Below, one piece after another: positions 43,155 to 64,000 of a stretch of 64,000 nucleotides of DNA. The notes beneath the pieces were generated by a model. The model was not told where the DNA came from. It saw only the letters and a program-made list of their open reading frames with translations, and searched no databases. The DNA comes from Rhodospirillaceae bacterium (GTDB lineage Bacteria; Pseudomonadota; Alphaproteobacteria; Rhodospirillales; JABHCV01), in contig JABJHA010000002.1 of the NCBI GenBank assembly GCA_018662005.1, positions 186,001-250,000 of the forward strand. The letters run 5' to 3'. A program made the translations under genes and the position numbers. Positions within the stretch are counted from its first letter, which is position 1, and the number at the start of each line of letters is the position of its first letter.

Positions 43155-43170
43155 ATGTCCCTCCCCGCGT

Positions 43171-44808: not shown

Positions 44809-44871
44809 GTTTTTCAGGCCTATCTGGTTAGCGCTTTTGTCTGCGACATAAAACGGGACAGTCCCCCATTC

Positions 44872-45672: not shown

Positions 45673-45704
45673 AATTTTAATGCTTTCAAATTAATTCTGA
45701 TCCG

Positions 45705-46499: not shown

Positions 46500-46517
46500 T
46501 ATTCGGTGCTCCTTGCG

Positions 46518-47282: not shown

Positions 47283-47293
47283 ATCGCCCTATA

Positions 47294-48295: not shown

Positions 48296-48394
48296 CTCGA
48301 TATCCTCCTATGGCAGGTCTCCGGAACTGGTGATTGATTCCGGTTTTTGCATGTTTTACAGCTTCATTAGGGAATAATGAGATGTCTTTAAGGC

Positions 48395-48427
48395 GTAAAC
48401 TTGTAAAAGGATTGCGGTCACGTAACA
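48395..48427 (-). promoter_or_regulatory. 33-bp regulon motif, copy B (LLM operon)
   Basis: On the minus strand it begins TGTTACG and ends CCTTTTACAAGTTTAC. It is 99 bp upstream of the LLM start and reads toward that gene. Its last 15 bases are identical to copy A, and 23 of 33 columns are identical in all three copies. Confidence 0.8.
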
Positions 48428-48433
48428 AATAAT

Positions 48434-49369: not shown

Positions 49370-49377
49370 GAATGTAT

Positions 49378-49410
49378 TGTTACGTAATCATAAACCTTTT
49401 ACAAGTTTAC
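49378..49410 (+). promoter_or_regulatory. 33-bp regulon motif, copy A (LysR/molybdoenzyme promoter)
   Basis: TGTTACG, seven variable bases, then AAACCTTTTACAAGTTTAC. On the other strand the second half contains GTAAAC-N9-GTTTAT, an inverted repeat as expected for LysR-type proteins. It lies 9 bp from the LysR start and 78 bp upstream of the molybdoenzyme FAD-subunit start. Confidence 0.82.
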
Positions 49411-49488
49411 TAATCTGGGGGAACAAGCAATTACTGGCTTATAAGCAATAAATTAGCCCTGTAAATTCAGCCTGGAGGTGGAATTTTT

Positions 49489-50400
49489 TTGTCAGAACCT
49501 TCTTCCGTACTTCCGGCCAGTAATTTGCCCGAGCTTGATCTGCACTGCCCGACAACTCTTGATGATGCCTTCACCGGTCTGGCCAATGGCGCTCACCCCT
49601 TGGCCGGAGGCACCGATGTCCTGTTATGGGCCTCCCAGCGAGGCGAGCCCCGGCAACTGGTATGGACGGGAGCCATCCCGGAGCTGCAAACCATAGAGGC
49701 CAACGTCGACAACTTTCGGGTAGGCGCCGCCGTGCCAATCGCCCGCCTCGTCCGTTCGTCTTCTTTTCGCACCGCCGCCCCCGCCGTGACCGAAGGGGCG
49801 CAATCAATCGGTTCCGTTCAAATTCGCAATCAGGCGACACTGATGGGGAATGTCTGCACCGCCTCGCCGGCCGGTGACACACTGCCGGGACTTCTTGTCC
49901 ACGATGGTATTGTGGAAATTGCCAGCGGCGATGGGAGCCGCCGCCAGGTCAAGCTGGTCGATTTCCTGATCGGCCCCGGCCAAACCGGCCTGAAAGCCGG
50001 TGAACTTTGCATCGCCATATCCCTGACACCACTGGCTGCGGGAGAAATCAGTTTTTATAAAAGGTTTACGGAGCGCAACGCCCTGGACCTGGCATTTGCC
50101 AGCGTCGCCGCCCGCCTTAAATTCGAGCCCGACGGTGTTACGGTCAACGCCGCCCGGCTGGCGCTTGGCGCCGTCGGGCCGGTTGTCATCGACGCCAGCG
50201 AGGCTGCGGCAATTCTTATCGGTAAACCATTGACGGTTCAGGCAATGCAAAAGTGCGCTGGAGGCGCTGCGGAAATCTGTGCACCGATCACCGATCATCG
50301 AGCCAGCGCCGATTACCGTCGTCAATTAATCAAGGTTCTGGTTGCAGATGTGATCACTGAAACGGGACTTCGGGCAAATTCAGTAACGGAGCAAACATGA
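49489..50400 (+). CDS. Molybdenum hydroxylase FAD subunit (CoxM/HcrB-like)
   Basis: 303 residues of the xanthine dehydrogenase medium-subunit family. The FAD motifs are HPLAGGTDVLLWA and SIGSVQIRNQATLMGNVCTA. The start is TTG, placed 11 nt after GGAGG. It carries electrons from the Fe-S subunit to the final acceptor. It overlaps the next gene by 4 bp, giving a coupled three-subunit operon. Confidence 0.9.
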   Translation: MSEPSSVLPASNLPELDLHCPTTLDDAFTGLANGAHPLAGGTDVLLWASQRGEPRQLVWTGAIPELQTIEANVDNFRVGAAVPIARLVRSSSFRTAAPAVTEGAQSIGSVQIRNQATLMGNVCTASPAGDTLPGLLVHDGIVEIASGDGSRRQVKLVDFLIGPGQTGLKAGELCIAISLTPLAAGEISFYKRFTERNALDLAFASVAARLKFEPDGVTVNAARLALGAVGPVVIDASEAAAILIGKPLTVQAMQKCAGGAAEICAPITDHRASADYRRQLIKVLVADVITETGLRANSVTEQT

Positions 50401-50852
50401 CAAAAAGCCAATTTCTTCATGTGAATGGCGCCCGTCATGAAATTTCTGCGGCCTGGACGGGGCGACGGCTGCTTGATTTTTTGCGTAATGAGCTGAATTT
50501 GCTGGCCACCAAGGAAGGCTGTGGCGAAGGTGATTGCGGTGCTTGCACAGTGCTTGTTGATGGCGAGCCTGTATGTTCGTGTCTGCTTTTATGCGGGGTA
50601 GTCGCCTCGAGAACCGTGACCACCCTGGAAGGCCTTCCGGATGAACTGGTGGCCAGGTTTGGTCAAGACTGCGAGGCCAAAGGGGGCGTTCAGTGCGGCT
50701 TTTGTACCGGTGGAATCGCCATGATGAACGCCTGGATTGAAGGCGGTGGGACGGAAACGGGAACGGAGCCATTGGCGAAACTTCTGGAAGGCAACATTTG
50801 CCGGTGTGGCGGATATCAGCAAATACATGATATGTTGAAAAAAAGCCCATGA
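50397..50852 (+). CDS. Molybdenum hydroxylase [2Fe-2S] subunit (CoxS/HcrC-like)
   Basis: 151 residues. A plant-type [2Fe-2S] motif (GCGEGDCGACTVLVDGEPV, then CSC) near 40-62 is followed by the C-terminal helical [2Fe-2S] site (CGFCTGGIAMMNAW, then GNICRCGGYQQI). This is the standard small subunit of molybdenum hydroxylases. It overlaps both neighbours by 4 bp. Confidence 0.93.
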   Translation: MTKSQFLHVNGARHEISAAWTGRRLLDFLRNELNLLATKEGCGEGDCGACTVLVDGEPVCSCLLLCGVVASRTVTTLEGLPDELVARFGQDCEAKGGVQCGFCTGGIAMMNAWIEGGGTETGTEPLAKLLEGNICRCGGYQQIHDMLKKSP

Positions 50853-53062
50853 ACGCTCCCCTTCCAAAATCAGCCGCGACCGTATGGGACAAGGCGACAG
50901 GAAAGTCTCGCTACACCGCCGACCTGATTCCACCCGGGACAATCGTCGCCGGAATGGCCCGCAGCCCCCATGCCTTCGCCCGGGTGACAGGTATCAATAC
51001 GGCTGAAACCCTGAAAATCCCCGGCGTCCTTGGCGTCTTCACGGCAGAAGATTTCGAAGGTATTGCCTTAGGCCATCAACAGCCCGACCAGCCCGTCTTG
51101 TCATCCGTCGCCCGCTATTATGGCGATGGCGTTGCCGCCGTTGCTGCAAGGGACCTGGAATCCCTGCGGCTGGGCCTTGAAGCGCTACACATCGACTACG
51201 AGGTTTTGCCCCATGTCTGTACCTTTGATCAGGCGCTTGCTGCCGAAATCCCGGTCCATCAATCCTGCCCGGATAATGTCGCCTTCAAGTTTGCGTCATC
51301 ACCGGGAGATTACGATGCCGCCGCTGCCCGGGTCGCGTTATGGGTCGAGGGAACTTTCGAGACCCAGGCCGTGCCCCATGCGGCCCTGGAACCCCGGGCC
51401 TGCCTGGTTCGTATCGATGGCGATGAGCTTGAACTGACAACGGCGACCCATGCGCCATCCGTCATTGTCGAACAATACCGGCAAATCGTCGAAAGCTGGG
51501 GCGCAAGGCTTGAAATCATCACCCCTGATATCGGCGGCTCATTCGGTGCCCGCTGGGAACATCCGACCCATCTTGTCTGTTTGCTGTTCGCCCACAGGCT
51601 GGGCCGGGATGTCGCCATGGTCCTGCCCCGACGCGAAGATATGATTGATGGGCGGACCCGCCTGGCCATGCGCATTCACACGCGCTTAGGCGCCACCGCA
51701 GACGGCGAATTTCTGGTCAAGGAGACGACGGTTCTGGCCGATAACGGCGCTTATTCCCTGCATGGGCCGCCAGTAACAATGGCCGCCATGATACGGGGCG
51801 ACAATATTTATCGGTTTTCCGCGATCAGGGCCGAAGCACAACTTGTTTATACCAACACCATGCCGTCGGAATGCTTCAGGGGGTTCGGCATTCCCCAATC
51901 GTCCTTTGCACTGGAACAACTGATTGATGAATTGGCGCGCCGACTGGACATGGACCCGGTGGCGTTGCGCCGCAAGAATGCCAGCCGCTCCGGCGACACC
52001 ACCATCCACGGTTGGGAAGTCGGCAGTTGCGGCATGGATGAATGCCTCGATGCCGTCGCCAGCCGAATGGATGCCCACAAACAAAGCGAAAACCCACCAG
52101 GCGATGAGCGTTTAAGAACAGGTTATGGCGTTTCAGCGGTCATGCATTGTATCAGCAACCGCGGCTATGACGCCCGCTTCGACAAGGCATATGTCTCCTT
52201 GAAACTGCGCCCGGACGGGACAATTGAAATCAGTTCCGGAGAGGTTGAAGTTGGCGCTGGCACGGTCGAGGTTCTGAAAAGCATCGTCGCGGGCGAACTT
52301 TCCATGGATCGCGAAAAATTAAATGTGGTTCTGGGCCATACGCCCAGCGGACCTTACGGGCTTGGCAGTTTTGCCAGCCGCACATCGTTTTTTGCCGGCG
52401 CCGCGGCCATTGACGCCTGCTTACAATTCAAAACCGCCTGCAACCAGATCGCCGCAGAACATGAATTAAAAGAAAATGCGTCGGTGGCGGAGGTTGTCAA
52501 TCTGGTCCAGAAACGTAGCCTGAATGAAAAAATTGATGTGACCGGTTGTTATGAACCAAAAGGTGTCGTGGTGCCCGATCAATCCGGATATGGCAACATC
52601 TCGCCCGCCTATACCTTCTCTGTTCACGGGTGTTGTGTGCAGGTCGACAAACTGACCGGCAAAGTAACCGTTCAGCAATATTGGGCGGCCCACGATTCAG
52701 GAACCATCATTAATCCCCAGGGCGCTATCGGACAGGTTATCGGCGGTGTCACTCAGGGGTTGGGTTTTGCCTTAAGTGAAGAAGCAGCCGTCGGCGAAAA
52801 TGGACAATTGCTTAACCCCGGATATTTAGACGACCGGGTCGCAACATTCCCCGACGCGGTTCCCATTGATGTTATTTTCGTCCCGACGACGGAAGAGGCC
52901 GGACCCGGTGGGGCCAAGACAATCGGCGAGCAGCCGATTATTCCGGTCGCCGGATGTGTCGCCAATGCTGTTTATGATGCTATTGGAGTCAGGCAATATA
53001 AGTTGCCCATGAAACCCGAGCGTGTCTGGCGCACGCTTCAGGACCAACAATCTAAGGAATAG
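50849..53062 (+). CDS. Molybdenum hydroxylase catalytic subunit (xanthine dehydrogenase family)
   Basis: 737 residues. The Moco-binding parts include DIGGSFGARWEHPTHLVC, ECFRGFGIPQSSFALEQLID, and near the C-terminus EAGPGGAKTIGEQPIIP, where Glu is the catalytic base. It hydroxylates a carbon next to an electron-poor position. It lacks the CODH active-site loop of CoxL form I as far as I can see, so an aromatic, N-heterocyclic or acyl-CoA substrate such as in 4-hydroxybenzoyl-CoA reductase (HcrA) is possible. The exact role is open. Confidence 0.9.
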   Translation: MNAPLPKSAATVWDKATGKSRYTADLIPPGTIVAGMARSPHAFARVTGINTAETLKIPGVLGVFTAEDFEGIALGHQQPDQPVLSSVARYYGDGVAAVAARDLESLRLGLEALHIDYEVLPHVCTFDQALAAEIPVHQSCPDNVAFKFASSPGDYDAAAARVALWVEGTFETQAVPHAALEPRACLVRIDGDELELTTATHAPSVIVEQYRQIVESWGARLEIITPDIGGSFGARWEHPTHLVCLLFAHRLGRDVAMVLPRREDMIDGRTRLAMRIHTRLGATADGEFLVKETTVLADNGAYSLHGPPVTMAAMIRGDNIYRFSAIRAEAQLVYTNTMPSECFRGFGIPQSSFALEQLIDELARRLDMDPVALRRKNASRSGDTTIHGWEVGSCGMDECLDAVASRMDAHKQSENPPGDERLRTGYGVSAVMHCISNRGYDARFDKAYVSLKLRPDGTIEISSGEVEVGAGTVEVLKSIVAGELSMDREKLNVVLGHTPSGPYGLGSFASRTSFFAGAAAIDACLQFKTACNQIAAEHELKENASVAEVVNLVQKRSLNEKIDVTGCYEPKGVVVPDQSGYGNISPAYTFSVHGCCVQVDKLTGKVTVQQYWAAHDSGTIINPQGAIGQVIGGVTQGLGFALSEEAAVGENGQLLNPGYLDDRVATFPDAVPIDVIFVPTTEEAGPGGAKTIGEQPIIPVAGCVANAVYDAIGVRQYKLPMKPERVWRTLQDQQSKE

Positions 53063-53072
53063 AGGCAAAGGC

Positions 53073-53822
53073 ATGGTTGAATTTATTGAAGTGGAGCTTA
53101 GGGACCGGGTCGTTGCCATAACCCTGAACCGGCCACAGCGCAAAAATGCCTTGTCCCTGGAATTGCTGGGCGACTTAAATGATGCCCTTGCAAACATTGT
53201 TGCTGAAGAGGTGAGCGCGGTGGTCCTGACCGGTGCCGGAGATTGCTTCAGCGCGGGCGGCGATTTCACCACCCTGACAGGGACGATTGACGATCTTGCC
53301 GTCGATGAAGGGATCGAGGCGGCGACGAGCGCAATCCGAAACTTGCCCGTTCCCGTTATTGCCGCCATCAATGGACCTTGCATGGGCGGGGCCTTTGACC
53401 TGGCCATGAGTTGCGATGTCCGGTTAGCGTCCGAGCAAGCTGTTTTTCAGGTTCCGGCAACCCGCTTAGGATTGCTCTACAATCCCCGGTCCATCGCCCG
53501 GTTGCGCCTGTTACTTGGCCGTGACGCGGTTTTTCGGATCATGATCATGGGGGAACGGCTTGACGCCCAAGCCGCCCTCAAAGACGGGATCGTCTCGCAA
53601 GTCATTGCCGGGGACGGCTGTCTCAAAGCAGCCATGGTCGTGGCCGAAAGCACGCACGCCAATGTCCCCGCCGCCGTCGCCGCCACCAAGGGTTTCCTCA
53701 ATGCCTTCGACGGAGATAATTTTGACCCTGCCCACTGGCAGAAAGTATATGAAGAGCTGCTGTCGTCACCGGCAAGAGCTGCCGCTGTCAGCAAGGCCAA
53801 AGACCGGCACGGAAAATCATAA
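53073..53822 (+). CDS. Crotonase-family protein lacking the hydratase glutamates
   Basis: 249 residues from the ATG at 53073, with GAGG upstream; a longer frame to 53022 overlaps the molybdoenzyme gene. DCFSAGGDFTTL and CMGGAFDLAMSCD form the oxyanion hole. The position of the first catalytic Glu is Asp (GGAFDLA) and the second is Ala (FQVPATRLGLL). A normal hydratase reaction is therefore unlikely; isomerase, hydrolase or dehalogenase chemistry is possible. It ends the molybdoenzyme operon and converges on cofE. Confidence 0.85.
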   Translation: MVEFIEVELRDRVVAITLNRPQRKNALSLELLGDLNDALANIVAEEVSAVVLTGAGDCFSAGGDFTTLTGTIDDLAVDEGIEAATSAIRNLPVPVIAAINGPCMGGAFDLAMSCDVRLASEQAVFQVPATRLGLLYNPRSIARLRLLLGRDAVFRIMIMGERLDAQAALKDGIVSQVIAGDGCLKAAMVVAESTHANVPAAVAATKGFLNAFDGDNFDPAHWQKVYEELLSSPARAAAVSKAKDRHGKS

Positions 53823-53841
53823 TATCCTGGCCCAGGATATT
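53821..53841. terminator. Palindrome covering two convergent stop codons
   Basis: AATATCCTGG-C-CCAGGATATT is a perfect 10-bp inverted repeat. Its left end is part of the crotonase TAA and its right end touches the cofE TAA on the other strand. It probably serves as a bidirectional terminator, although no long T-run follows on either side. Confidence 0.6.
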
Positions 53842-54611
53842 TACCTGAACAGGTCCATGTCCTTCGGGCGGACCAGTGAGCCCGCCCCGGAATCCGGTTG
53901 ATCCCAGGAAAAATCACCGCGAATAATCACCACCGGTTGTTTATCGGCCCCCTGTCCATGTAAAAGTGCTGCCGCCGAAGCCAGTTCATCGGCGATCGCC
54001 TGTTGGCTGACCTTCAGTTCGCGACCGAACAAATCCTCGTCACCGCGCAAATCCAACAAGGCCGGAATTCCGGCGACGCCAATAGCGATACCGGTTGTTC
54101 CCATGCGCCAGGGCCGGCCAAGGCTGTCGCTGATGATCACCGCCACATCGGCACCGCTAAGGTCCAACAGCCGGGCCCGGATTTCCTGACATGACTTATC
54201 AGGATCGACGGGCAGCAGAAGGACATTTTCCTGGCCCCCTTCGGAGCGAACGTTTGAGCGGTCCAGCCCGGCATTGGCCAGGATGACACCGGTGTGATGG
54301 ACGACGATCAGAATATCGGGGACGGCGCGTAGAACTTCTACTGATTCCGACAGGATCAGTTCCACCTCACGGGGGTCCTTGCCGCATTGATCGGCGACGT
54401 CCCGGGCCCTGGGCGATGGCGTCACCTGGTTTAAGTCAACGGTTCGTCCTTCGATCTTGGAGATCACCTTCTGGGCAATTACTACAATATCACCACTCGC
54501 CAGATTGCGGCCCAGTGCGGCAACGCCTTCAATGATCGGTTCTGCCAGATCGTCACCGGGTTCCATCAAGGCTAAATGGGGAACGGCATAGGATTCAAAT
54601 GAGGACGCCAT
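53841..54611 (-). CDS. cofE: Coenzyme F420-0:L-glutamate ligase
   Basis: 256 residues of the CofE/FbiB N-terminal family. GDIVVIAQKVISKIEGRTVD, ILSESVEVLR, VHHTGVILANAGLDRSNV and VIISDSLGRPWRMGTTGIAIG are family hallmarks. It adds glutamate residues to F420-0. The C-terminal nitroreductase-like domain of mycobacterial FbiB is absent. It is transcribed alone on the minus strand, divergent from the FrhB-like operon, with motif copy C 59 bp upstream. The ATG at 54611 is preferred over the TTG at 54617. Confidence 0.93.
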   Translation of the reverse strand: MASSFESYAVPHLALMEPGDDLAEPIIEGVAALGRNLASGDIVVIAQKVISKIEGRTVDLNQVTPSPRARDVADQCGKDPREVELILSESVEVLRAVPDILIVVHHTGVILANAGLDRSNVRSEGGQENVLLLPVDPDKSCQEIRARLLDLSGADVAVIISDSLGRPWRMGTTGIAIGVAGIPALLDLRGDEDLFGRELKVSQQAIADELASAAALLHGQGADKQPVVIIRGDFSWDQPDSGAGSLVRPKDMDLFR

Positions 54612-54669
54612 GGTCAAAACCTGTTTTTTGGTGGCAATTTCTTGATGAAAATAAGTGACATGAAACTTT

Positions 54670-54702
54670 TGTTACGCGGCAACAAACCTTTTTGAAGTTT
54701 AC
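54670..54702 (+). promoter_or_regulatory. 33-bp regulon motif, copy C (cofE/FrhB-like promoter)
   Basis: TGTTACG, seven variable bases, then AAACCTTTTTGAAGTTTAC, in the same spacing as copies A and B. It sits 147 bp upstream of the FrhB-like start, reading toward it, and 59 bp from the cofE start. Two bases in the central TTTTAC differ from the other copies. Confidence 0.8.
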
Positions 54703-54849
54703 AAAATATGCCAATTCAATCCTATTGGCGACAGAACGATTGATGAATTCCTAAGCACTGGTAATTGATCAATTTTTGTCATCTCCACACTCTCGCGCAG
54801 TATCATATTTGGGTGAGAGATCACAAGGAATTTTGGGAACCGGGTACCC

Positions 54850-56142
54850 ATGGTCAAAGTCCAACAACCTCCCTTACGTAGCCTGGATAAAAGAACGTCT
54901 GACGTTGAAAGCCGTTTTCTGGGGCTGATCGAAGAGGGAACCGACCCTAACGAATGGGCCTTTGCCTGGCGCACGGAATTAAACCGTGGCGGTTTCCGCG
55001 CCGTCGATTTCCTGATGAAGACAATTGTCGATCCCGGCAAGTGCGTCGGCTGCGCTTCGTGCATCAGTATTTGTCCGGTTGACGTTTTCGATTATGTCGA
55101 TGAGCGCCCCGTCGATACCCGAACCGATGCCTGCGTTTACTGTATTTTATGCGTCGAGGTTTGCCCGGTGCTGCGGCCCGTTGATCGGGACTTGCCGGAA
55201 ATTCTTGAATTTCGTGAACCCGCCACGCTCGAGAGCTACGGCACCTATTCTTACGGCGTCTATGCCCGCGCTACCGACCCGGAAATCCTCGACCATGCAC
55301 AAGACGGCGGTGTCGTATCGGCGCTTATTCTGCATGGCTTTGATAATGGCACCCTTGAAGGGGCCATTCTGGGCGATGTCTATCCCGACAATACCCAGAT
55401 CGGCTTTCAGAAACTGGCCAAAACCCGTGAACAGGTGCTGAGCTGTGCTGCATCCCGTTACACCTATTCGCCCAATACCCTGGCCCTTCAGGAAGCTATG
55501 AAGGAAAACGTCTCGCCGCTTTGTGTGGTTGGTGTTCCCTGTCAGGTCGATGGCGTGCGCCTGCAACAGCACTCGAGCATCCGCATGGAAATGAGCAATT
55601 GGTACCGGGACAATATCGCCCTGGTTATCGGGCTGTATTGTTCAGAAAGCTTCACCCATGAAAGCATAGAAAAACTGGGCGAGTTGATCGACGTTGATCC
55701 GAAAAGGATCGTTAACATCAATATTAAGGGCAAGGTCGTGGTCCGCCTCGATGATGGCGAGGTCAGGGAATACTCGCTGGCCAAGTATCAGCAATTCGCC
55801 CGCCCGGCGTGTCTTTATTGCCTTGATTACGGTGCCGAAAATGCCGATCTGAGTTGTGGTGGCATTGGCATGGATGGCTGGACTTACACCCTGATCAGAA
55901 CCGAACGAGGACATAAGGCCTTTGCAGCAGCATTGGAAGCAGGCGTCATCGAACAGCGGCCCTTGGCTGATGAACCCCGGGGCGAATACCTGATGGGAAT
56001 GTTATCGAAAAATAAAAAACTGAACCGTCCCTTGCCCGTGCAAATGCCGACCCTGGAAGAACGAACAGCCTTAGGCTATTTGAGCCCTAAAACCTTTTAC
56101 ACAAAAGGACCCGGGGCACCGCCACCGGCTGAAGAGCAATGA
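54850..56142 (+). CDS. F420-reducing FrhB/FdhB-type flavin and Fe-S subunit
   Basis: 430 residues. Residues about 60-120 hold two [4Fe-4S] motifs (CVGCASCISICPVDVFDY, then CVYCILCVEVCP). The remainder is the FrhB/FdhB fold: DGGVVSALILHGFDNG, VVGVPCQVDGVRL, GLYCSESFTHE, and a second Cys group in RPACLYCLDYGAENADLSCG. This family transfers electrons between Fe-S clusters and F420 through FAD. It overlaps the 2-oxoacid oxidoreductase alpha gene by 4 bp, so the two products probably form one complex. The ribosome binding site is weak, so the start is less certain. Confidence 0.9.
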   Translation: MVKVQQPPLRSLDKRTSDVESRFLGLIEEGTDPNEWAFAWRTELNRGGFRAVDFLMKTIVDPGKCVGCASCISICPVDVFDYVDERPVDTRTDACVYCILCVEVCPVLRPVDRDLPEILEFREPATLESYGTYSYGVYARATDPEILDHAQDGGVVSALILHGFDNGTLEGAILGDVYPDNTQIGFQKLAKTREQVLSCAASRYTYSPNTLALQEAMKENVSPLCVVGVPCQVDGVRLQQHSSIRMEMSNWYRDNIALVIGLYCSESFTHESIEKLGELIDVDPKRIVNINIKGKVVVRLDDGEVREYSLAKYQQFARPACLYCLDYGAENADLSCGGIGMDGWTYTLIRTERGHKAFAAALEAGVIEQRPLADEPRGEYLMGMLSKNKKLNRPLPVQMPTLEERTALGYLSPKTFYTKGPGAPPPAEEQ

Positions 56143-57932
56143 ACATTATCAACAATAAAATCAAATTGCCGAGCCCGGCCAAGGTTTGTAAAGATGTCAA
56201 CGTGATGGTCGCGGGGCAAGGCGGTGATGGTTCGCTGACCATCATTTCGCTGCTTTCCCAAGCCCTTCGCAATCGCGGACTCGACCTTTATCAGACCAGC
56301 AACATTGCGTCCCGCATCAAGGGCGGTCATGCGGCGGCGATTTTACGTGCCTCGCAAGTCCAGCACGGCGGCCTTGGCGATAACCTGGATGTACTTGTCG
56401 CCTTTGATGAAGAAGCCATTGTCAACGCCGGTCCAACCATGGGCCCCCAAGGCATTGTCATTTACGATTTGTCGCGCGGGCCATTGCCTGTAAATTGTCT
56501 GAACGACGATGTCGTGGTTCTTGCCGTGCCGTTCAGCCGCTTTGCGGTCAGGGATTTACGGCGCGACCTGTTCAAAAACGGCATCGGTTTCGGCCTGGTT
56601 GCCCGGGCGCTCGGCATCGACGATACCGAAGCCGCCGATTGCATGAAAAAGCGCTTCAAAAGACTTTCCAAAGACGCCCTGAACGCCAACCTTCATGCCC
56701 TGAGCTTAGGCTTTGAAGTCGCTGATGAATTCGGAATCAAAGTGGGCAAGAACCTGATCGATTTGCCCAAAGGGGAAAAATCGGAACGCCTGTCCATTAC
56801 CGGCAACCAGGCGACGGCGATGGGATTCCTGGCCGCCGGTGGGCGGTTCTTTGCCGGATATCCGATTACCCCTGCGACAGAAATCATGGAAACACTATCA
56901 AGACATTCCTCAAAGTTAGGCGCTGTGGTCATTCAGGCGGAAGACGAGTTGTCCGCCATTAATCAGGCTATCGGAGCTTCGCTTACAGGGGCGCGGGCCA
57001 TGACAGCGTCTTCATCACCAGGCATAGCCCTGATGCAGGAAAGCATCAGCCATTGCGGTTCGGCCGAAATTCCCCTGGTTGTTGTCAACTGCCAACGGGC
57101 CGGGCCGTCAACGGGCATGCCGACAAAAACCGAACAAAGCGACTTAGGCATGTTGACCCAGGGCGGCAGTGGCGATTTTCCCCGTGTCGTGCTTTACCCC
57201 GGCAATGCCCAGGAATGCTTCAACATCGCCGCCCTGGCGACGAACATTTCACAGATCGCGCAAATCCCTGTCTACATCGCCCTGGATCGGTCGCTGGCCC
57301 AAAACACCGCCACCGTTGCCCCGTTTGATCTTGACAGTGTTGAACTGGATAAAGGGAAACTTCTCGATCAGGCGGCACTTGAAAAAATTGATACCTATCA
57401 GCGCTACGCCATTACCGATGATGGCATTTCGCCGTGGGCGGTGCCGGGTATGCCTGGCGGAATGAATCTTGTCACCGGCAATGAACGCAACGAATGGGGA
57501 CAGGTATCCACCGAACCGGCCAACCGCGTTATTATGATGGACAAACGGGCCCGCAAGATCGACGCTATTTTGGACCTGCTGCCAGGGGCGGTCGAAAACG
57601 GTGACGAAAATGCGGACATCGGCCTGATTGGCACCGGCATGGAATCGGGTGTCATGTGTGAAGCTCAGGAAAAACTTGAAGAACAGGGTTTGAAAACACT
57701 GATCCACCGGCCATTAACCTTGTGGCCTGTCCTGGACGACACCATCGATTTTGTCAAAAAGTGCTCGAAAGTTTACGTCATTGAACACAACGAGAGCGGC
57801 CAGTTGGAACGGCTTCTTAAAGGAGCCGGTTGTCCGCCTGAAACCCTTCGCGGGATTCGTAAATATGACGGATTACCGTTCAGACCTTCGGAATTGGCGG
57901 ACAGAATTATCACACAAGAGGCAATGGCATGA
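56139..57932 (+). CDS. 2-oxoacid:acceptor oxidoreductase, fused gamma-alpha subunit
   Basis: 597 residues. Residues about 20-195 are the gamma (POR) domain: MVAGQGGDGSLTIISLL, then SNIASRIKGGHAAAILRAS. Residues about 220-590 are the alpha domain: GNQATAMGFLAAGGRFFAGY and PITPATEIM, EDELSAINQAIGASLTGARA, and NCQRAGPSTGMPTKTEQSDL. It resembles the KorA type. With the beta subunit it oxidatively decarboxylates a 2-oxoacid to an acyl-CoA. It overlaps both flanking genes by 4 bp. Confidence 0.93.
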   Translation: MNIINNKIKLPSPAKVCKDVNVMVAGQGGDGSLTIISLLSQALRNRGLDLYQTSNIASRIKGGHAAAILRASQVQHGGLGDNLDVLVAFDEEAIVNAGPTMGPQGIVIYDLSRGPLPVNCLNDDVVVLAVPFSRFAVRDLRRDLFKNGIGFGLVARALGIDDTEAADCMKKRFKRLSKDALNANLHALSLGFEVADEFGIKVGKNLIDLPKGEKSERLSITGNQATAMGFLAAGGRFFAGYPITPATEIMETLSRHSSKLGAVVIQAEDELSAINQAIGASLTGARAMTASSSPGIALMQESISHCGSAEIPLVVVNCQRAGPSTGMPTKTEQSDLGMLTQGGSGDFPRVVLYPGNAQECFNIAALATNISQIAQIPVYIALDRSLAQNTATVAPFDLDSVELDKGKLLDQAALEKIDTYQRYAITDDGISPWAVPGMPGGMNLVTGNERNEWGQVSTEPANRVIMMDKRARKIDAILDLLPGAVENGDENADIGLIGTGMESGVMCEAQEKLEEQGLKTLIHRPLTLWPVLDDTIDFVKKCSKVYVIEHNESGQLERLLKGAGCPPETLRGIRKYDGLPFRPSELADRIITQEAMA

Positions 57933-58792
57933 CGACAACCTTCACACCAAAAGACCCGATCTGGTGCGCCGGTTGCGGCCACTACGGCGTTCAGGGAGCA
58001 CTTGTTAACGCCTTGAAAGAACTTGAAATTCCGGCCCACGAAACTTTCGTACTGGCGGGCATTGGCTGTTCGGGTTCGATCCAGAACAATATCAATGCCT
58101 ACGGTTATCATTCCATGCACGGTCGCGTTCTGCCGACAGCCGTGGGCGCCGCCATCGCCAACCCCGAGCTTACTGTCATCGCCGCCGGTGGTGACGGCGA
58201 TGGATATGCCATCGGCATGGGCCATTTTGTCCACGCCATTCACCGCAATGCCAGTGTCCTTTATATCCTGATGAACAATGCCGCCTATGGGCTGACCAAG
58301 GGTCAGGATTCGCCGACTTCGGCGGCAGCCCGTGTCGCCGGTTACAGTGCGCCCATTGATGGCATTACGTTGGGTCTTTCGATCCCGGGTGCTACCTTTC
58401 TGGCGCGCGGTTTTACGCGCTGGTCGGACCAGCTTAACGGCTTGCTGAAACAGGGTCTGGAACATGTTCGGGCCAAGAAAGGCTTTGCCTTACTAGAAAT
58501 CCTGTCACCCTGCGTCACCTATAACGACACCTATCCCGATTGGGATACACAACTGTTTAATGTCGATGAAGACCCGGATTACTCATCCGCTGACAGGGGT
58601 GTTGCTTTCCAGGCGATTGAACGTTTGCGAGGCGAGGGAAGAATAGCTGCCGGTTTGATCCACCGGGGAGAGCAATCGGCTTTCGAAGCACAATGGCTAG
58701 AAGACGGCATCTGTCCGGCCAATTTGGAAGCCCATGATCCGCAAAAAAACCTTGAAACCCTGCGTGACATTATGACGTCCTACTCGGCATAA
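57929..58792 (+). CDS. 2-oxoacid:acceptor oxidoreductase beta subunit (TPP binding)
   Basis: 287 residues. IWCAGCGHYGVQGALVNAL and GIGCSGSIQNNINAYGYHSM, then HGRVLPTAVG, give the Fe-S and TPP sites. VIAAGGDGDGYAIGMGHFVH is the Mg-TPP motif, and MNNAAYGLTKGQDSPTS follows. It is a KorB-type catalytic partner of the alpha gene. Its start overlaps the alpha stop by 4 bp. There is no separate ferredoxin subunit; the FrhB-like protein supplies Fe-S clusters. Confidence 0.93.
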   Translation: MTTTFTPKDPIWCAGCGHYGVQGALVNALKELEIPAHETFVLAGIGCSGSIQNNINAYGYHSMHGRVLPTAVGAAIANPELTVIAAGGDGDGYAIGMGHFVHAIHRNASVLYILMNNAAYGLTKGQDSPTSAAARVAGYSAPIDGITLGLSIPGATFLARGFTRWSDQLNGLLKQGLEHVRAKKGFALLEILSPCVTYNDTYPDWDTQLFNVDEDPDYSSADRGVAFQAIERLRGEGRIAAGLIHRGEQSAFEAQWLEDGICPANLEAHDPQKNLETLRDIMTSYSA

Positions 58793-58874
58793 TTAACAAA
58801 GGTCTTAATATGGCAACTTAGGCGAAGAACGATATTGTGAAAAACAATACAAACAACCGGAGCCACCGAACACA

Positions 58875-59885
58875 ATGAGCCGGTCTCAAGATTCCATATC
58901 CACCCGACCCCGGGTTCTGGCGCTCAGCGGCGGCATTGGCGGGGCCAAACTGGCCCTTGGTCTTTACAGGATACTTGAGCCCTGGCAATTGGCCGTGGTT
59001 GTCAACACAGGCGATGATTTTGAACACTTGGGGCTTCATATTTCGCCCGATGTCGATACCCTGATGTATACCCTGTCGGGTGAAAACAATACGGAATTGG
59101 GTTGGGGCCGGGCCGGCGAGACATGGGTTTTTCTCGAGCAGTTAAAACGGCTTGGCGGCGAGACCTGGTTTCAATTGGGTGACGGCGATCTTGCCGTTCA
59201 TATAAGACGCACTGAATCCCTTAAGCAAGACCATACATTAAGCGCGATTACCGCCGATCTGTTCCTTAGGATGGGTATCGAAGCCCACGCATGGCCCATG
59301 AGTGACCAGTCGGTCAGAACCATGGTTGATACGGCGGACGGACAGGTCCTTCCTTTTCAGAATTATTTTGTCGGACAATTATGCAAGCCCGAAGTCAGTG
59401 GATTTCGTTTCACCGGTGCCCAGACGGCAAAACCCAATCAATCTTTCCTTCGCTTGCTTGGCGATCCCAAACTGGATGCGGTCATTATCTGTCCGTCAAA
59501 TCCTTTCGTCAGTGTCGATCCCATCCTTGCCATACCGGGGGTGCGCGAGGCGCTGAAGGCTTGCCCGGTACCGGTCATTGCGATCAGCCCCATTGTTGGT
59601 GGCGAGGCGGTGAAAGGACCAACGGCAAAGATGATGCGTGAATTGAAGATGGATGTTAATCCGCTTAGCGTGGCAGGGCATTACGCCGGTCTGCTCGATG
59701 GCTTCGTCCTTGACGATGCAGACGCTGGTTATAGGGACTCCCTTGAAATTTCCTCGCTTGTTACCTCGACCGTCATGCAAACTCTTGCAGATCGTGACAC
59801 TCTTGCCCGCGATGTTCTTGCCTTCGCCGAGCAGCTCAAGGCGAAGGAACTTTCGCTGCCGGTCGTCGCCAGGGGGGCTTTATAG
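58875..59885 (+). CDS. cofD: 2-phospho-L-lactate (or related) transferase CofD
   Basis: 336 residues. ALSGGIGGAKLALGLYRIL and VVNTGDDFEHLGLHISPDVD, then TLMYTLSG, are diagnostic for CofD/FbiA. SDQSVRTMVDT and ICPSNPFVSVDPILAIPG support the call. It joins FO to the activated phospho-acid to make F420-0 (or its dehydro or 3PG form). It lies 82 bp after the KorB-type gene, with no terminator seen between, and 2 bp before cofC. Confidence 0.95.
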   Translation: MSRSQDSISTRPRVLALSGGIGGAKLALGLYRILEPWQLAVVVNTGDDFEHLGLHISPDVDTLMYTLSGENNTELGWGRAGETWVFLEQLKRLGGETWFQLGDGDLAVHIRRTESLKQDHTLSAITADLFLRMGIEAHAWPMSDQSVRTMVDTADGQVLPFQNYFVGQLCKPEVSGFRFTGAQTAKPNQSFLRLLGDPKLDAVIICPSNPFVSVDPILAIPGVREALKACPVPVIAISPIVGGEAVKGPTAKMMRELKMDVNPLSVAGHYAGLLDGFVLDDADAGYRDSLEISSLVTSTVMQTLADRDTLARDVLAFAEQLKAKELSLPVVARGAL

Positions 59886-59887
59886 CC

Positions 59888-60589
59888 ATGCATCATTCCG
59901 GCTTCTGGGCCATTGTTCCGGTCAAAGACTTCAAAGGTGCCAAATCACGTCTGGCCACCGTGTTGGACGCAGGCGAGCGCCAACAGTTGTCTCGTGTCAT
60001 GCTGCGCGATGTCTTGGGCGCTATTTCTGCCGTCCCGCAATTGGCCGGCACGGTGATGGTGACGCACGATCCGGAAGCGGCGGAAATAGCTACGGCCTTT
60101 GGCGCCCGAGTCTTTTATGAGGTTGAAAACAGAGGCCCGACAGAAGCGGTGATGATGGCCGTCCGTCTGCTGGTGGCGGAGGGACAAACGGGCATGATCA
60201 GCATCCCCGGGGACGTTCCCCTGGTAAACACTGATGAAATCAGCCACCTGCTCGACTCCCATGGTTCGGCACCGGCGGTGACAATAACCCCGGCTTGGGA
60301 TGGCGGCGGCTCAAATGCCATTGTTTGCACGCCACCCGATGCTATTCCACTGAGTTATGGCGAAGGCAGCTTTTCATCACACCTTAAAACCGCAAAGCGA
60401 CATGGTATTGAAGTCAACGTCATCGAACTACCCGGCTTTGGGCTTGATCTTGATCGACCCGATGATCTGTTCACCTTTATTGAAAAATCCTCGCTTTGCC
60501 TGACGGCACAGTACTTAACAGACAGTGGCATCGCCGCCCGTTTGAACGCTCCTGCTTCTTCAAGCGCATTACTCAGGAGTCACGGATGA
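59888..60589 (+). CDS. cofC: Phospholactate/phosphoglycerate guanylyltransferase CofC
   Basis: 233 residues with the nucleotidyltransferase start WAIVPVKDFKGAKSRLATVL and ISIPGDVPLVNTDEISHL; a SNAIVCTPP stretch and LPGFGLDLDRPDDLFTFI are typical of CofC. It activates 2-phospholactate, or PEP or 3-phosphoglycerate in some bacteria, with GTP. The choice of acid sets the F420 side chain; the sequence does not let me decide. It overlaps cofGH by 4 bp. Confidence 0.93.
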   Translation: MHHSGFWAIVPVKDFKGAKSRLATVLDAGERQQLSRVMLRDVLGAISAVPQLAGTVMVTHDPEAAEIATAFGARVFYEVENRGPTEAVMMAVRLLVAEGQTGMISIPGDVPLVNTDEISHLLDSHGSAPAVTITPAWDGGGSNAIVCTPPDAIPLSYGEGSFSSHLKTAKRHGIEVNVIELPGFGLDLDRPDDLFTFIEKSSLCLTAQYLTDSGIAARLNAPASSSALLRSHG

Positions 60590-63006
60590 GCGATAATGAC
60601 CGCCTGTCAAAATCAAAGGCATTGGCACTGGCCGGGACAGGTGAGGGCGACCTCGCGGCAATGAAAAAAAGGGCCGCCAGCCTTCGCGACGAGGGCCATG
60701 GCAACATTGTCAGCTATTCGCGCAAGGTTTTCATTCCACTGACCCAGCTTTGCCGCGACGTTTGCCATTATTGCACTTTCGCCAAGACGCCGAAAAACCT
60801 TCGGCGGGCCTACATGACACGAGACGAGGTTCTCGCCATTGCCCGCGCCGGTCAGGCCGCCGGTTGCAAGGAAGCCCTGTTCACCCTGGGCGACAAGCCC
60901 GAGAAGCGCTACGACCAGGCCCGGGACGAACTGCAAGAACTGGGATTTGCAACAACTCTTGAATACGTCGCCGACATGGCCCGAATGGTTTTTGTCGAGA
61001 CCGGATTGTTGCCCCACATTAATGCCGGCGTCATGAGCGGCCCGGAAGTCGCTATGCTAAAAGGTGTCTCCCTTTCCCAGGGGCTGATGCTGGAAAGCGG
61101 CTCGTCTCGTCTTTGTCAAAAGGGTCAGGCCCATTTCGGTAGCCCTGACAAAGATCCGGCCCTGCGCCTTGAAACCCTTCGCCAGGCGGGCATTCATCAA
61201 GTCCCCATAACATCGGGCCTGCTGCTGGGAATAGGCGAGACCCGCAAAGAATATATAGAATCACTTTTGGCGTTGCGCGCCCTTCATGACCAATATGGTC
61301 ATATTCAGGAAATTATTATTCAGAATTTCCGCGCCAAACCTGACACAGTAATGGCCCAATCGCCTGAACCGTCTCCGGATTTACTGCTTTGGGCCGTCGC
61401 CGCGGCCAGGCTTGTTTTCGGGCGGACGATGAATATCCAGGCCCCGCCAAATCTGAGCCCGGGACTGATTGGCCAATTGATTGGCGCCGGGATCAACGAT
61501 TGGGGCGGCATCTCGCCGGTAACCCCCGATCACGTTAACCCGGAAGCACCATGGCCGCATCTTGATGCCATTGCAGCGGAAACGAAACTCGCCGGAAAGA
61601 CTCTGGTCGAAAGGCTGGCGGTATACCCCGACTATATTTTCAGCAACAAGGACTGGATCACGACTGACTTTCGCGCCCGGGTTCTCCATACCATTGATGC
61701 CAGCGGTTATGTGCGATCCGATTCCTGGTCGCCCGGGCAAGAAACCACGATCCCCGAAATGAAAACCGATGTACGGTCCTTTCATATTGAAGACTCCCTC
61801 AGTCGGGTTTTATCGAAAGCTACCGCAGGTGTGGAAATCAACGAGGCCGAAATCTCGACGTTGTTCGACACCCGGGGGACGGACTTTTCCAGGGTATGCC
61901 ATTCGGCTGACCAATTGCGTCGGGAGGTCAACGGCGACACCGTCACCTATATCGTCAACCGCAACATCAATTACACCAACGTCTGTTATTTCCGCTGTGG
62001 CTTCTGCGCCTTTTCCAAAGGCAAAATGTCGGAAAACCTGCGCGGTCGCCCCTATGACTTGGGGCTCGACGAAATCGTTCGCCGGACAGGCGAGGCAAGG
62101 GACCGGGGAGCGACGGAAGTCTGCCTGCAGGGTGGCATTCACCCCGCTTATACGGGCGAGACCTATCTCGGCATTGTGCAGGCCATAAAACGGGCATATC
62201 CCGAAATCCATGTCCATGCTTTCTCGGCCCTTGAAGTGTGGCACGGTGCGCAAACCCTCGGGCTTGGCATTTCAGAATTCCTGCATGAGCTTTCCCAAGC
62301 TGGCCTTGGATCCTTGCCCGGAACGGCGGCGGAAATTCTTGATGACGACATCAGAAAAGTGATCTGCCACGACAAGATTAATTCCGGGCAGTGGGTCGAC
62401 ATTATCGAGACCAGCCATCAAGCGGGCTTACAAACAACGTCGACCATCATGTTCGGACACATCGAGCGACCCCGGCACTGGGCCCGTCATCTGCTGCATT
62501 TACGGTCTTTACAAAAGCGCACCGGCGGGATCACCGAATTCGTGCCCCTGCCTTTCGTGCATCAGGAATCACCGCTTTATCTGAAGGGCAAGGCCCGAAA
62601 AGGGCCGACCTTCCGCGAGGCCGTGCTGATGCACGCCGTGGCGCGCCTGGCCCTGCATCCGCATATCACCAATATTCAGACATCCTGGACCAAGATGGGC
62701 CCGGGCGGCGTTGCGGCCTGCTTGCAGGCTGGCGTCAATGATTTGGGCGGCACGCTAATGAACGAGAGCATCAGTCGGGCAGCTGGTTCGTCTTTTGGCG
62801 AGGAGTTGCCGCCCGAACAAATGGAATCTATCATCAGGGGAATCGGTCGCGCCCCCCGACAACGAACCACTTTATATGGGGATGCGCCAGCAGCGGCCAT
62901 TGAGGCATCCTTTAACGCAGTGCCTCTGACGCCAATCACCAGTACAGAGCCGAAGCGCAATAAATCGCAAAACGAAAATCAGCCGCTGATACGGGCCGGC
63001 GAATAA
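60586..63006 (+). CDS. fbiC: FO synthase, fused CofG-CofH (FbiC-type)
   Basis: 806 residues made of two radical-SAM halves. The CofG half has CRDVCHYCTFAKTPKNLRRA near residue 45-65. The CofH half has NVCYFRCGFCAFSKGKMSEN near residue 465-485. Both carry the CxxxCxxC cluster motif. It makes the deazaflavin FO from tyrosine and the pyrimidine precursor. I use the ATG at 60586, which overlaps the cofC stop, not the longer frame at 60496. The fused form is the one found in many bacteria. Confidence 0.95.
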   Translation: MSDNDRLSKSKALALAGTGEGDLAAMKKRAASLRDEGHGNIVSYSRKVFIPLTQLCRDVCHYCTFAKTPKNLRRAYMTRDEVLAIARAGQAAGCKEALFTLGDKPEKRYDQARDELQELGFATTLEYVADMARMVFVETGLLPHINAGVMSGPEVAMLKGVSLSQGLMLESGSSRLCQKGQAHFGSPDKDPALRLETLRQAGIHQVPITSGLLLGIGETRKEYIESLLALRALHDQYGHIQEIIIQNFRAKPDTVMAQSPEPSPDLLLWAVAAARLVFGRTMNIQAPPNLSPGLIGQLIGAGINDWGGISPVTPDHVNPEAPWPHLDAIAAETKLAGKTLVERLAVYPDYIFSNKDWITTDFRARVLHTIDASGYVRSDSWSPGQETTIPEMKTDVRSFHIEDSLSRVLSKATAGVEINEAEISTLFDTRGTDFSRVCHSADQLRREVNGDTVTYIVNRNINYTNVCYFRCGFCAFSKGKMSENLRGRPYDLGLDEIVRRTGEARDRGATEVCLQGGIHPAYTGETYLGIVQAIKRAYPEIHVHAFSALEVWHGAQTLGLGISEFLHELSQAGLGSLPGTAAEILDDDIRKVICHDKINSGQWVDIIETSHQAGLQTTSTIMFGHIERPRHWARHLLHLRSLQKRTGGITEFVPLPFVHQESPLYLKGKARKGPTFREAVLMHAVARLALHPHITNIQTSWTKMGPGGVAACLQAGVNDLGGTLMNESISRAAGSSFGEELPPEQMESIIRGIGRAPRQRTTLYGDAPAAAIEASFNAVPLTPITSTEPKRNKSQNENQPLIRAGE

Positions 63007-63007
63007 A

Positions 63008-63424
63008 TCAGTTGTAATCCTTGGCCAAAGTTTTCTCTGAATTGATGACGATAAGCTTGCGTTCTATTTCGCTTTGAACAACTTCATGACTCTGAGAATA
63101 ACGCAGGCCTATTTTCTCTGCGATATCATGGAAGCGCGGGTCATTTGGTTCGACAAACCTGGCGGCACCATAAATCGTCACGGTCCGTGAATCCGGATGC
63201 TCACCGCCGACACAGAAACTGACCCGCGGATCGCGCGCGATATTCCGATGCTTTGCCGAGTTGGCATCAAATCCGATGTAAACCAGGCCTCGCTCATAGA
63301 GATACCAGACGGTGCTTAACTGAGGCGCGCCATCCTGGCGGTTGGTGGCAAGCACGGCATTTCGCACATCCGATAAGAAGGCATCAATTTGAAGCTGCGT
63401 CATGGGTGTTGAGGGATAGGTCAT
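63008..63424 (-). CDS. FDOR-B/PPOX-type flavin or F420-dependent oxidoreductase
   Basis: A 138-residue split-barrel protein of the pyridoxamine 5'-phosphate oxidase fold. NAVLATNRQDGAPQLSTVWY and IGFDANSAKHRNIARDPRVS fit the small F420-binding FDOR-B subgroup, with Lys/Arg-rich KHRNI as a likely phosphate site. It converges on fbiC with a single base between stop codons. F420 use is supported by context but is not certain. Confidence 0.8.
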   Translation of the reverse strand: MTYPSTPMTQLQIDAFLSDVRNAVLATNRQDGAPQLSTVWYLYERGLVYIGFDANSAKHRNIARDPRVSFCVGGEHPDSRTVTIYGAARFVEPNDPRFHDIAEKIGLRYSQSHEVVQSEIERKLIVINSEKTLAKDYN

Positions 63425-63453
63425 GATAAATTTTTCCAGGATTTCTATGGGGC

Positions 63454-64000
63454 TTAACCCATGCGCATTAATACGTCGACGGCGGCGACCCCATGTTCCA
63501 GGACCAGCAGCGGGTTGATATCCAGCTCGGTGAGTTCGCCTGTGTGATCTGCAGCAAATCGGCCCAGTTTCATAATGGTGTCGATCAAGGCCTCGCGGTC
63601 GCCCGGCTGTTGGCCCCGGTAGCCATTTAACATCGTTGATATTTTTAACGAATCCACGGCCGCGGATACCGTCTGCCGGTCTGTCGGCAATAACAGGGTC
63701 TTGGCGTCGCTCACCAGTTCCACAAATGTGCCGCCGGTTCCAATAATCAACGTCTGGCCGAACTGCGGGTCATTCTGGATGCCGACAACGAGCTCTGCGA
63801 CGGCGCCCATGACCATGCTCTCGACAAGAAATTCTTCACACGCAAACTCGGGAGCATAGTCGGCCACGGATTTGGTGATCTCTCTTATTGCGTCGTTAAC
63901 CTGCAAAGCGTTCTTCAATCCGATTTTGACTGCCCCTGCTTCCGTCTTGTGAGGCAACCGGGAACTGATCAATTTTACGACGACCGGAAAACCAATTTCC
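63454..64000 (-). CDS. ADP-forming acyl-CoA synthetase ATP-grasp domain, C-terminal part
   Basis: The gene runs off the right edge; about 182 C-terminal residues are visible. EIGFPVVVKLISSRLPHKTE is the ATP-grasp_5 start region with the ATP-binding Lys. FLVESMVMGAVAELVVGIQN, FGQTLIIGTGGTFVELVSD and ELTELDINPLLVLEHGVAAV complete the domain. Such enzymes interconvert acyl-CoA and acid plus ATP. The gene order suggests a link to the 2-oxoacid oxidoreductase, whose acyl-CoA product it could convert with ATP formation (inference). Confidence 0.88.
   Translation of the reverse strand, partial: EIGFPVVVKLISSRLPHKTEAGAVKIGLKNALQVNDAIREITKSVADYAPEFACEEFLVESMVMGAVAELVVGIQNDPQFGQTLIIGTGGTFVELVSDAKTLLLPTDRQTVSAAVDSLKISTMLNGYRGQQPGDREALIDTIMKLGRFAADHTGELTELDINPLLVLEHGVAAVDVLMRMG

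Follow-up and report, generated by a model that had tools for sequence, protein, structure and literature searches.

A candidate 2-oxoacid:F420 oxidoreductase combining an extended FrhB protein with KorAB-type subunits in a Rhodospirillaceae genome and other bacteria

The closest described systems for reducing cofactor F420 through an FrhB protein beside a carbon-oxidising enzyme are archaeal. Chadwick et al. (2022) found FrhB6 of anaerobic methanotrophic archaea (ANME-1) mainly in clusters of pyruvate:ferredoxin oxidoreductase (PFOR) and proposed the oxidation of pyruvate to reduced F420 (F420H2) (PMC9012536), and Lemaire et al. (2024) described complexes of carbon monoxide dehydrogenase (CODH) and formylmethanofuran dehydrogenase (Fwd) that reduce F420 via a bound Fer4-FrhB protein, with eightfold lower rates for ferredoxin (PMC11493965). 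A 2021 review of F420 names homologues of Fno, Fgd and Adf for Proteobacteria, Tectomicrobia and Chloroflexi, and no word in it begins with FrhB, pyruvate or oxoglutarate (PMC8498797); other reports have FrhB within a photosynthesis cluster or adjoining a hydrogenase rather than a 2-oxoacid:ferredoxin oxidoreductase (OFOR) (PMC12533140, PMC9426454). F420 reduction in bacteria beyond the well-studied actinobacteria is little known. Here we describe a three-gene unit, frhB-korGA-korB, in a 64,000-nucleotide stretch of a Rhodospirillaceae bacterium genome (contig JABJHA010000002.1; hereafter the window). As judged from its genes, the unit probably encodes a single complex that acts as a direct, coenzyme A (CoA)-dependent 2-oxoacid:F420 oxidoreductase.

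According to the listing of open reading frames (ORFs), the three genes lie on the plus strand and overlap by 4 bp at both junctions (56139-56142 and 57929-57932). They are followed on the same strand by F420 biosynthesis genes, with a gap of 82 bp between korB and cofD, a gap of 2 bp between cofD and cofC, and a 4-bp overlap of cofC and fbiC:

54850-56142, plus strand: frhB-like gene (Fer4 dicluster plus FrhB, predicted F420 oxidoreductase subunit), 430 aa, from Pfam, NCBIfam and structure searches
56139-57932, plus strand: fused gamma-alpha subunit of a 2-oxoacid oxidoreductase (KorGA), 597 aa, with POR and POR_N domains and a TIGR03710 match
57929-58792, plus strand: thiamine pyrophosphate (TPP)-binding beta subunit (KorB), 287 aa, with Cys13/16/47/195 and CoA-site Lys124
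58875-59885, plus strand: cofD (2-phospho-L-lactate transferase), TIGR01819 273.0 bits, cut-off 257.45
59888-60589, plus strand: cofC, TIGR03552 142.7 bits, cut-off 105
60586-63006, plus strand: fbiC (CofG-CofH fusion), NF006687 1125.3 bits, cut-off 1018, taken from its ATG start (the mechanical ORF begins upstream at a TTG, 60496)
53841-54617, minus strand: cofE, divergent, TIGR01916 271 bits, cut-off 180.65 (scanned as 53841-54608)

Since cofE is divergent, it lies outside the frhB-Kor-cof transcript. A preliminary description of this DNA had noted the overlapping genes, an operon running on into cofD, cofC and fbiC, and two [4Fe-4S] motifs in the FrhB-type protein; the coordinates bear out the first two points, and the third was confirmed by a Fer4 dicluster whose eight cysteines do not vary in 39 sequences. 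Promoter and terminator scans of 54400-63500 gave 8 and 9 hits, respectively, close to the 5.8 and 11.5 expected from shuffled sequence, and were not used.

Besides the Fer4 dicluster, Pfam recognises FrhB_FdhB_N (57.4 bits, cut-off 22) and FrhB_FdhB_C (121.5 bits, cut-off 23.3) in the first product. The segments and motifs noted in it are as follows, together with one in KorGA:

54850-55020, plus strand: N-terminal extension of FrhB, residues 1-57, with the motifs NEWAFAW and GGFRAVDF, from the alignment and the model
55042-55074, plus strand: first [4Fe-4S] motif, Cys65/68/71/75, invariant in 39 sequences
55132-55164, plus strand: second [4Fe-4S] motif, Cys95/98/101/105, invariant in 39 sequences
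55300-55311, plus strand: QDGG (residues 151-154), the loop for the pyrophosphate of flavin adenine dinucleotide (FAD), aligned with 24QDGG of the Methanothermobacter marburgensis FrhB and invariant in 39 sequences
55540-55821, plus strand: stretch with Cys231, Cys264, Cys321 and Cys324, aligned with the four conserved FrhB cysteines
56859-56873, plus strand: YPITP motif (residues 241-245) in the alpha domain of KorGA, invariant in the 29 sequences aligned

All 12 Fe-S cysteines (eight of the dicluster, four of FrhB) and QDGG are invariant in 39 of 39 aligned FrhB sequences (locus L087 was left out of the alignment and tree). Cys264 aligns with the cluster ligand Cys134 of the M. marburgensis FrhB, in which 24QDGG is an FAD element and Cys134 a cluster element (PMC3930138). 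By sequence, the best solved relatives are the FrhB chains 9r51_B (E 1.4e-39) and 3zfs_C (4.6e-38) and the Fer4-FrhB chains 8rja_E (3.5e-37) and 8riu_B (5.7e-35); the matched hydrogenase FrhB chains (about 280-290 aa) align only from window residue 128-131 on, without the Fer4 part. An AlphaFold2 model of the single chain, built from 39 homologues, reached a mean predicted local distance difference test score (pLDDT) of 79.5 and a predicted template modelling score (pTM) of 0.84, with pLDDT below 50 at residues 1-6, 68-79 (the first Fe-S loop) and 94-96. A fold search with this model ranked 8rja_E (4.1e-22) and 8riu_B (5.0e-22) ahead of the FrhB chains, among them 9r51_B (E 9.9e-22, template modelling score by target 0.83). 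The N-terminal extension is conserved and is modelled with three helices (14-28, 33-46 and 51-60); we propose that it is a docking element.

KorGA joins a POR (gamma) to a POR_N (alpha) domain, exceeds the TIGR03710 cut-off (545.6 vs 482.75 bits), and aligns along its whole length with 6n2n_A (3.6e-93) and also with the Sulfolobus enzyme StOFOR. KorB has the Pfam domain TPP_enzyme_C, comes nearest to PorB_KorB (TIGR02177), whose cut-off of 261.9 bits it does not reach with its 225 bits, and matches 5b48_B, 6n2n_B and 5b46_B in the structural database. Several characteristic residues and motifs are retained: in KorGA, R320, equivalent to the substrate-carboxylate arginine Arg344, and GPSTG with its threonine; in KorB, the four beta-cluster cysteines, the GDGD motif and the CoA-site lysine. 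The roles of YPITP and of the CoA-site Lys125 are described for StOFOR (PMC5020499). The alignments comprised 29 of 37 KorGA sequences, and 19 of 36 unit members of KorB plus one standard KorB. Lys49 (beta) of StOFOR is replaced by Ser or Thr in the 19 KorB sequences, and D468 (alpha; located by counting along the 5b46_A alignment) by an Asn that is invariant in the 29 KorGA sequences. In StOFOR1 the substitutions K49I and D468A abolished 2-oxoglutarate activity and kept pyruvate activity, yet the KorAB of H. thermophilus has neither residue and is 2-oxoglutarate-specific (PMC5020499). The pocket thus gives no clear pointer to 2-oxoglutarate; our first guess is pyruvate or another small 2-oxoacid.

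The window pair might have been an ordinary ferredoxin-type KorAB. The genome, however, has a separate gamma-alpha/beta pair (C12:44657) with its own flavoprotein-like neighbours, and the two KorB proteins are only 37% identical; the ordinary reading of the distinct window pair was therefore rejected. The separate pair (L044:4553-10150) stands in an apparent operon with two genes for flavoproteins of the pyridine-nucleotide-disulfide type, one with added 4Fe-4S motifs, and as read from these genes it is possibly an NAD(P)-coupled OFOR.

The arrangement was then followed across genomes. Scanning the genome_contigs collection (84,980 species genomes) with peptide patterns from inside the FrhB extension gave 38 loci; as the patterns came from the extension, the 38 loci sample only FrhBs that have it. 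Carriers are labelled Alpha- and Gammaproteobacteria, Acidimicrobiia and other actinobacterial groups, Chloroflexi, Armatimonadetes, Thermodesulfobacteriales and Dadabacteria; these are labels of metagenome-assembled genomes (MAGs), some of them doubtful: the one labelled Armatimonadetes belongs to the same class as the Acidimicrobiia genome G064. The neighbourhood survey that the preliminary description had in view found frhB followed by a co-oriented korGA in 36 of the 38 loci, with korB coming next in 35, and the exceptions in gene order are contig ends (L070, L087 and L072). With automatic starts and the window included, frhB and korGA overlap by 4 bp in 26 of 37 loci (the other 11 junctions range from +2 to -202, partly owing to the start chosen), and korGA and korB do so in 34 of 36. 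We observed a high correlation between the pairwise distances of FrhB and KorGA (r 0.88 in 35 loci; the highest value among 999 permutations was 0.24), from which L062, L072 and L087 (contig ends) and L070 and L003 (no KorGA) were left out. For the 17 loci with cofD, the correlation was 0.95 for FrhB-KorGA and 0.86 for FrhB-CofD.

The unit is also linked to F420 biosynthesis. The most frequent neighbours in 39 stretches (the 38 loci and the window from 42001; single-linkage BLAST clusters) were cofD (19), cofE (19), fbiC (15) and cofC (12), followed more weakly by a crotonase (9) and a molybdenum hydroxylase (8); several other clusters resembling shadow ORFs opposite real genes were not counted. 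A tblastn search with the window crotonase and molybdenum hydroxylase over L050-L087 and L105 found 6 and 7, respectively. At least one of cofC, cofD, cofE and fbiC occurs in the fetched flanks of 19 of the 38 loci, and genome-wide cofD is present in 38 of 39 carriers (37 genomes of the 38 loci and the window's own), in 31 of them above the model cut-off. This compares with 59 of 384 other sampled genomes of the window's class, taken to be Alphaproteobacteria (60 of 385 with its own, 58 above cut-off), giving a Fisher p of 2e-26; related genomes are not independent draws, so this and the following p-values are guides only, and the background for cofD and Fno is the window's class alone. When carriers are restricted to the window and the 20 loci labelled proteobacterial, cofD is found in 20 of 21. 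Within the class, FrhB of the Kor-linked type occurs in 1 of 385 sampled genomes, the window's own. Within the window's genus, full-length FrhB and cofD are both present in G000 (the window genome) and G003 and both missing from G001 and G002. Of 60 relatives, 9 carry cofD and 2 the full-length FrhB.

Known F420 reductases are scarce in the carriers. Fno exceeds the cut-off in 46 of 385 class genomes, all of them cofD-positive, that is, in 46 of the 59 cofD-positive genomes without the unit, vs only 2 of 39 carriers (G092 and G095; Fisher p 1.3e-13). Restricting the carriers to the 21 proteobacterial ones, window included, leaves a single genome with Fno (p 2.7e-9), and a second if a near miss is counted (p 4.0e-8). 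Fgd exceeds its cut-off in 1 of 39 carriers (G075), and 32 of 39 have neither enzyme when near misses are counted as present. In the window genome (96.54% complete) no Fno match was found at E <= 1e-3, and the best Fgd match (E 2.7e-13) is not above the equivalog cut-off. These counts agree with the suggestion of the preliminary description that the unit would be an alternative to Fgd and Fno. Direct electron transfer from a 2-oxoacid to F420, which it had also suggested, is supported at the level of genes by the gene order kept across phyla, the invariant FAD and Fe-S motifs, the co-occurrence with F420 biosynthesis and the scarcity of Fno and Fgd. That the unit would be the chief source of F420H2 in many carriers, in place of Fno or Fgd, is a reading we favour by a small margin. 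As a separate observation, three carriers (G079, G084 and G085) each gave 70 to 86 first-look candidates in the Fgd search, of which 41 were scored and matched in each, which suggests a large repertoire of luciferase-like (LLM) oxidoreductases.

From gene order, motifs, the predicted FrhB fold, linkage and co-occurrence, which were observed directly, we infer complex formation, the electron path, its direction and the substrate. KorGA/KorB would decarboxylate the 2-oxoacid on TPP and yield acyl-CoA; electrons would leave KorB by its [4Fe-4S] cluster and enter the ferredoxin domain of FrhB, which has two such clusters and would stand in for a soluble ferredoxin or a KorD subunit, before moving on through FrhB's own [4Fe-4S] cluster to FAD and, as hydride, to F420. 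The oxidative direction is preferred because F420 (about -340 to -350 mV) is too positive for reductive carboxylation (potentials from PMC9012536 and PMC10229431).

FrhB proteins also occur apart from the unit. The window genome encodes two FrhB_FdhB_C proteins, the second of which (L003:6182-7501, contig C13) has the same extension and is 65% identical. It lies between a DAO-GcvT fusion resembling dimethylglycine/sarcosine dehydrogenase and a putative formate-tetrahydrofolate ligase (L003:3534-5987 and L003:7732-9447), and upstream are genes for an LLM protein and a member of the nitrilase family; possibly, to judge from these genes, the locus serves F420-linked one-carbon or methylamine catabolism. 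In the tree this paralogue groups with L070 (cut off at a contig end) and L073 (Kor-linked) inside the Kor-linked FrhB clade (SH-aLRT, a Shimodaira-Hasegawa-like branch test, 98 by a quick method), and its nested position means that it probably descends from Kor-linked FrhBs; it may act in trans with KorAB or have a new partner. A separate, shorter type occurs in the class of G064 (Acidimicrobiia by label): at least 166 of 296 genomes have an FrhB match at E <= 1e-20, 12 match at E <= 1e-230 as the full type (11 known carriers and G743), and at least 154 have only a shorter or weaker Fer4-FrhB match. Among the matches listed, the shorter ones mostly start at about residue 54 of the window FrhB. 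Of 34 shorter-type loci, a non-random selection among the matches listed (L105, of the full type, is outside the 34), 33 have no Kor within the stretch fetched; with only one of the 34 beside Kor, no general claim is made for the shorter type. That one (L099:4007-8069) has a shorter Fer4-FrhB immediately after a KorAB pair that is closer to the standard one (32% and 46% identical to the C12 pair) and is a possible independent Kor-F420 coupling. At L105:1-7040 the full frhB-korGA-korB lies between a putative fdhD upstream and, downstream, a putative mobA on the opposite strand and a putative formate-tetrahydrofolate ligase gene. A formate link suggested by these three genes was dropped, as they occur in 0 of the 38 other loci searched, and an archaeal-type formyltransferase (FTR) was not found in the search of the window genome.

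Several observations weigh against a direct 2-oxoacid:F420 oxidoreductase or its dominance in carriers. FrhB scores below the equivalog for the F420 hydrogenase beta subunit (TIGR03289, 176.4 vs 331.5 bits), and the window protein is therefore a relative of that subunit, not the subunit itself. Its paralogue on C13 has no Kor beside it in the same genome, 19 of 38 loci have no F420 biosynthesis gene in the fetched flanks, and G094 (L084) carries FrhB-Kor with no cofD found. The non-proteobacterial carriers, compared above with the window's class, are mainly actinobacterial, where F420 is common. Fno narrowly misses its cut-off in G097 (147.4 vs 149.8 bits) and is present as a fragment in G096, Fgd has near misses in G093 (402.7) and G088 (400.3 vs the cut-off of 420 bits), and ten carriers, nine of them labelled actinobacterial, hold Fgd-like LLM proteins at 171-200 bits vs the same cut-off. 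Since the carriers are mostly MAGs, absence of Fno or Fgd is weak evidence for any single genome.

These points can be set against three other explanations. If ferredoxin were the true acceptor of KorAB, FrhB would be a separate ferredoxin:F420 oxidoreductase of the FpoF kind, merely co-expressed. Soluble FpoF has such an activity (PMC9012536), and the lone C13 protein and the shorter Fer4-FrhBs show that FrhB can stand apart. Against this, the order of the three genes is fixed across phyla with short overlaps, neither ferredoxin nor KorD is encoded among them or the cof genes behind them, the extension is a hallmark of the Kor-linked clade, C13 offshoot included (motifs from the extension were, however, used in the scan), and the nearest structural analogues are tightly bound subunits; we consider this explanation unlikely. 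It is clearly less probable still that FrhB uses an acceptor other than F420 and shares only a regulon with the cof genes. HCAR (5dqr), which we take not to be an F420 enzyme, belongs to the same fold family and is itself a fold match (E 3.9e-16), so FrhB-fold proteins are not always F420 users. The window FrhB, however, is 33% identical to FrhB 9r51_B vs 21-23% to HCAR in the fold search, and cofD in 38 of 39 carriers, the joint presence or absence of FrhB and cofD within the genus, and the scarcity of Fno and Fgd all speak for F420.

Hardly any credence is given to a complex running in reverse, with F420H2 driving reductive carboxylation of acyl-CoA to a 2-oxoacid, as in CO2 fixation. OFORs are reversible in principle, and the nearest solved gamma-alpha relative, 6n2n, is presumably a 2-oxoglutarate enzyme of the reverse tricarboxylic acid cycle from Magnetococcus. 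F420, however, is insufficiently reducing under standard conditions, an argument also made in PMC9012536, the unit has no bifurcating partner, and window genes are read as cytochrome oxidase and acyl-CoA catabolism. A complex passing electrons directly from a 2-oxoacid to F420 remains the preferred explanation.

Possible users of F420H2 are encoded nearby:

63008-63424, minus strand: FDOR/PPOX-class F420 oxidoreductase, possible F420H2 user, TIGR03618 83.6 bits, cut-off 79.05
47294-48295, minus strand: putative LLM protein, possible F420H2 user, read from the translation

Relatives of this LLM protein (38% identity) are also found near FrhB-Kor in L059 and L063. Beside the F420 cluster, positions 41988-53822 of the window hold genes for an acyl-CoA dehydrogenase, a CoA ligase, crotonases, the LLM protein and a three-subunit molybdenum hydroxylase, and related LLM, CoA ligase and crotonase genes recur at L059 and L063. 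The flanking genes suggest an F420H2-using degradation pathway.

A direct oxidoreductase of this kind would explain how F420 producers without Fno and Fgd recharge the cofactor, would tie the F420H2 pool directly to 2-oxoacid (carbon) catabolism, and would extend the exchange of ferredoxin for F420 at low-potential enzymes from alkane-oxidising archaea to bacteria; it might also serve as an F420 regeneration system on a cheap substrate such as pyruvate. Taken together, the data incline us, without great assurance, to see here a previously unreported class of bacterial 2-oxoacid:F420 oxidoreductase (Alpha- and Gammaproteobacteria, Acidimicrobiia, Chloroflexota and a few other phyla) that is the main F420 reductase in many carriers, with the extended FrhB as a plug-in electron module recruited at least once more, beside a dimethylglycine-dehydrogenase-like flavoprotein.

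The preliminary description had called the route uncommon or undescribed. This holds insofar as no bacterial report of FrhB with an OFOR was found among the paper listings searched, which lack most subscription journals and all preprints; it does not hold for the concept, which had already been proposed for FrhB6/PFOR of ANME-1 and proven in analogous form for CODH and Fwd. As in ANME-1, an FrhB paralogue is encoded with an OFOR and F420 reduction from a 2-oxoacid (pyruvate in ANME-1) is proposed; unlike that archaeal PFOR system, itself a prediction, the bacterial unit consists of a fused KorGA plus KorB, often with cof genes, a comparison made by description only. The window FrhB finds its best structural match in the Ca. 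Ethanoperedens complexes of CODH and formylmethanofuran dehydrogenase (8riu, 8rja), which likewise place a Fer4 dicluster and FrhB beside a low-potential carbon-oxidising enzyme; these are archaeal, have CODH or Fwd as partner and are biochemically proven, whereas the window partner is a predicted OFOR. With the FrhABG hydrogenase the unit shares the FrhB domain, QDGG and the Fe-S cysteines, but the matched FrhB chains are shorter, align without the Fer4 part and have a hydrogenase as partner, and the window FrhB stays under its equivalog cut-off. With Sulfolobus StOFOR (5b46/5b48) and 6n2n it shares the gamma-alpha fusion plus beta, YPITP, the Arg344 position, the CoA-site Lys and the cysteines of a single [4Fe-4S] cluster; in contrast to the window unit, StOFOR uses ferredoxin (PMC5020499) and 6n2n is annotated as a pyruvate flavodoxin/ferredoxin oxidoreductase. 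For Fno (NADPH:F420) and Fgd (glucose-6-phosphate:F420), the proposed shared role is the supply of F420H2. Both are proteins that we take to be unrelated to the FrhB-Kor unit. The unit would thus represent a known principle in a new combination of partners, new in bacteria as far as we have seen, with genomic evidence pointing to its substitution for the standard enzymes.

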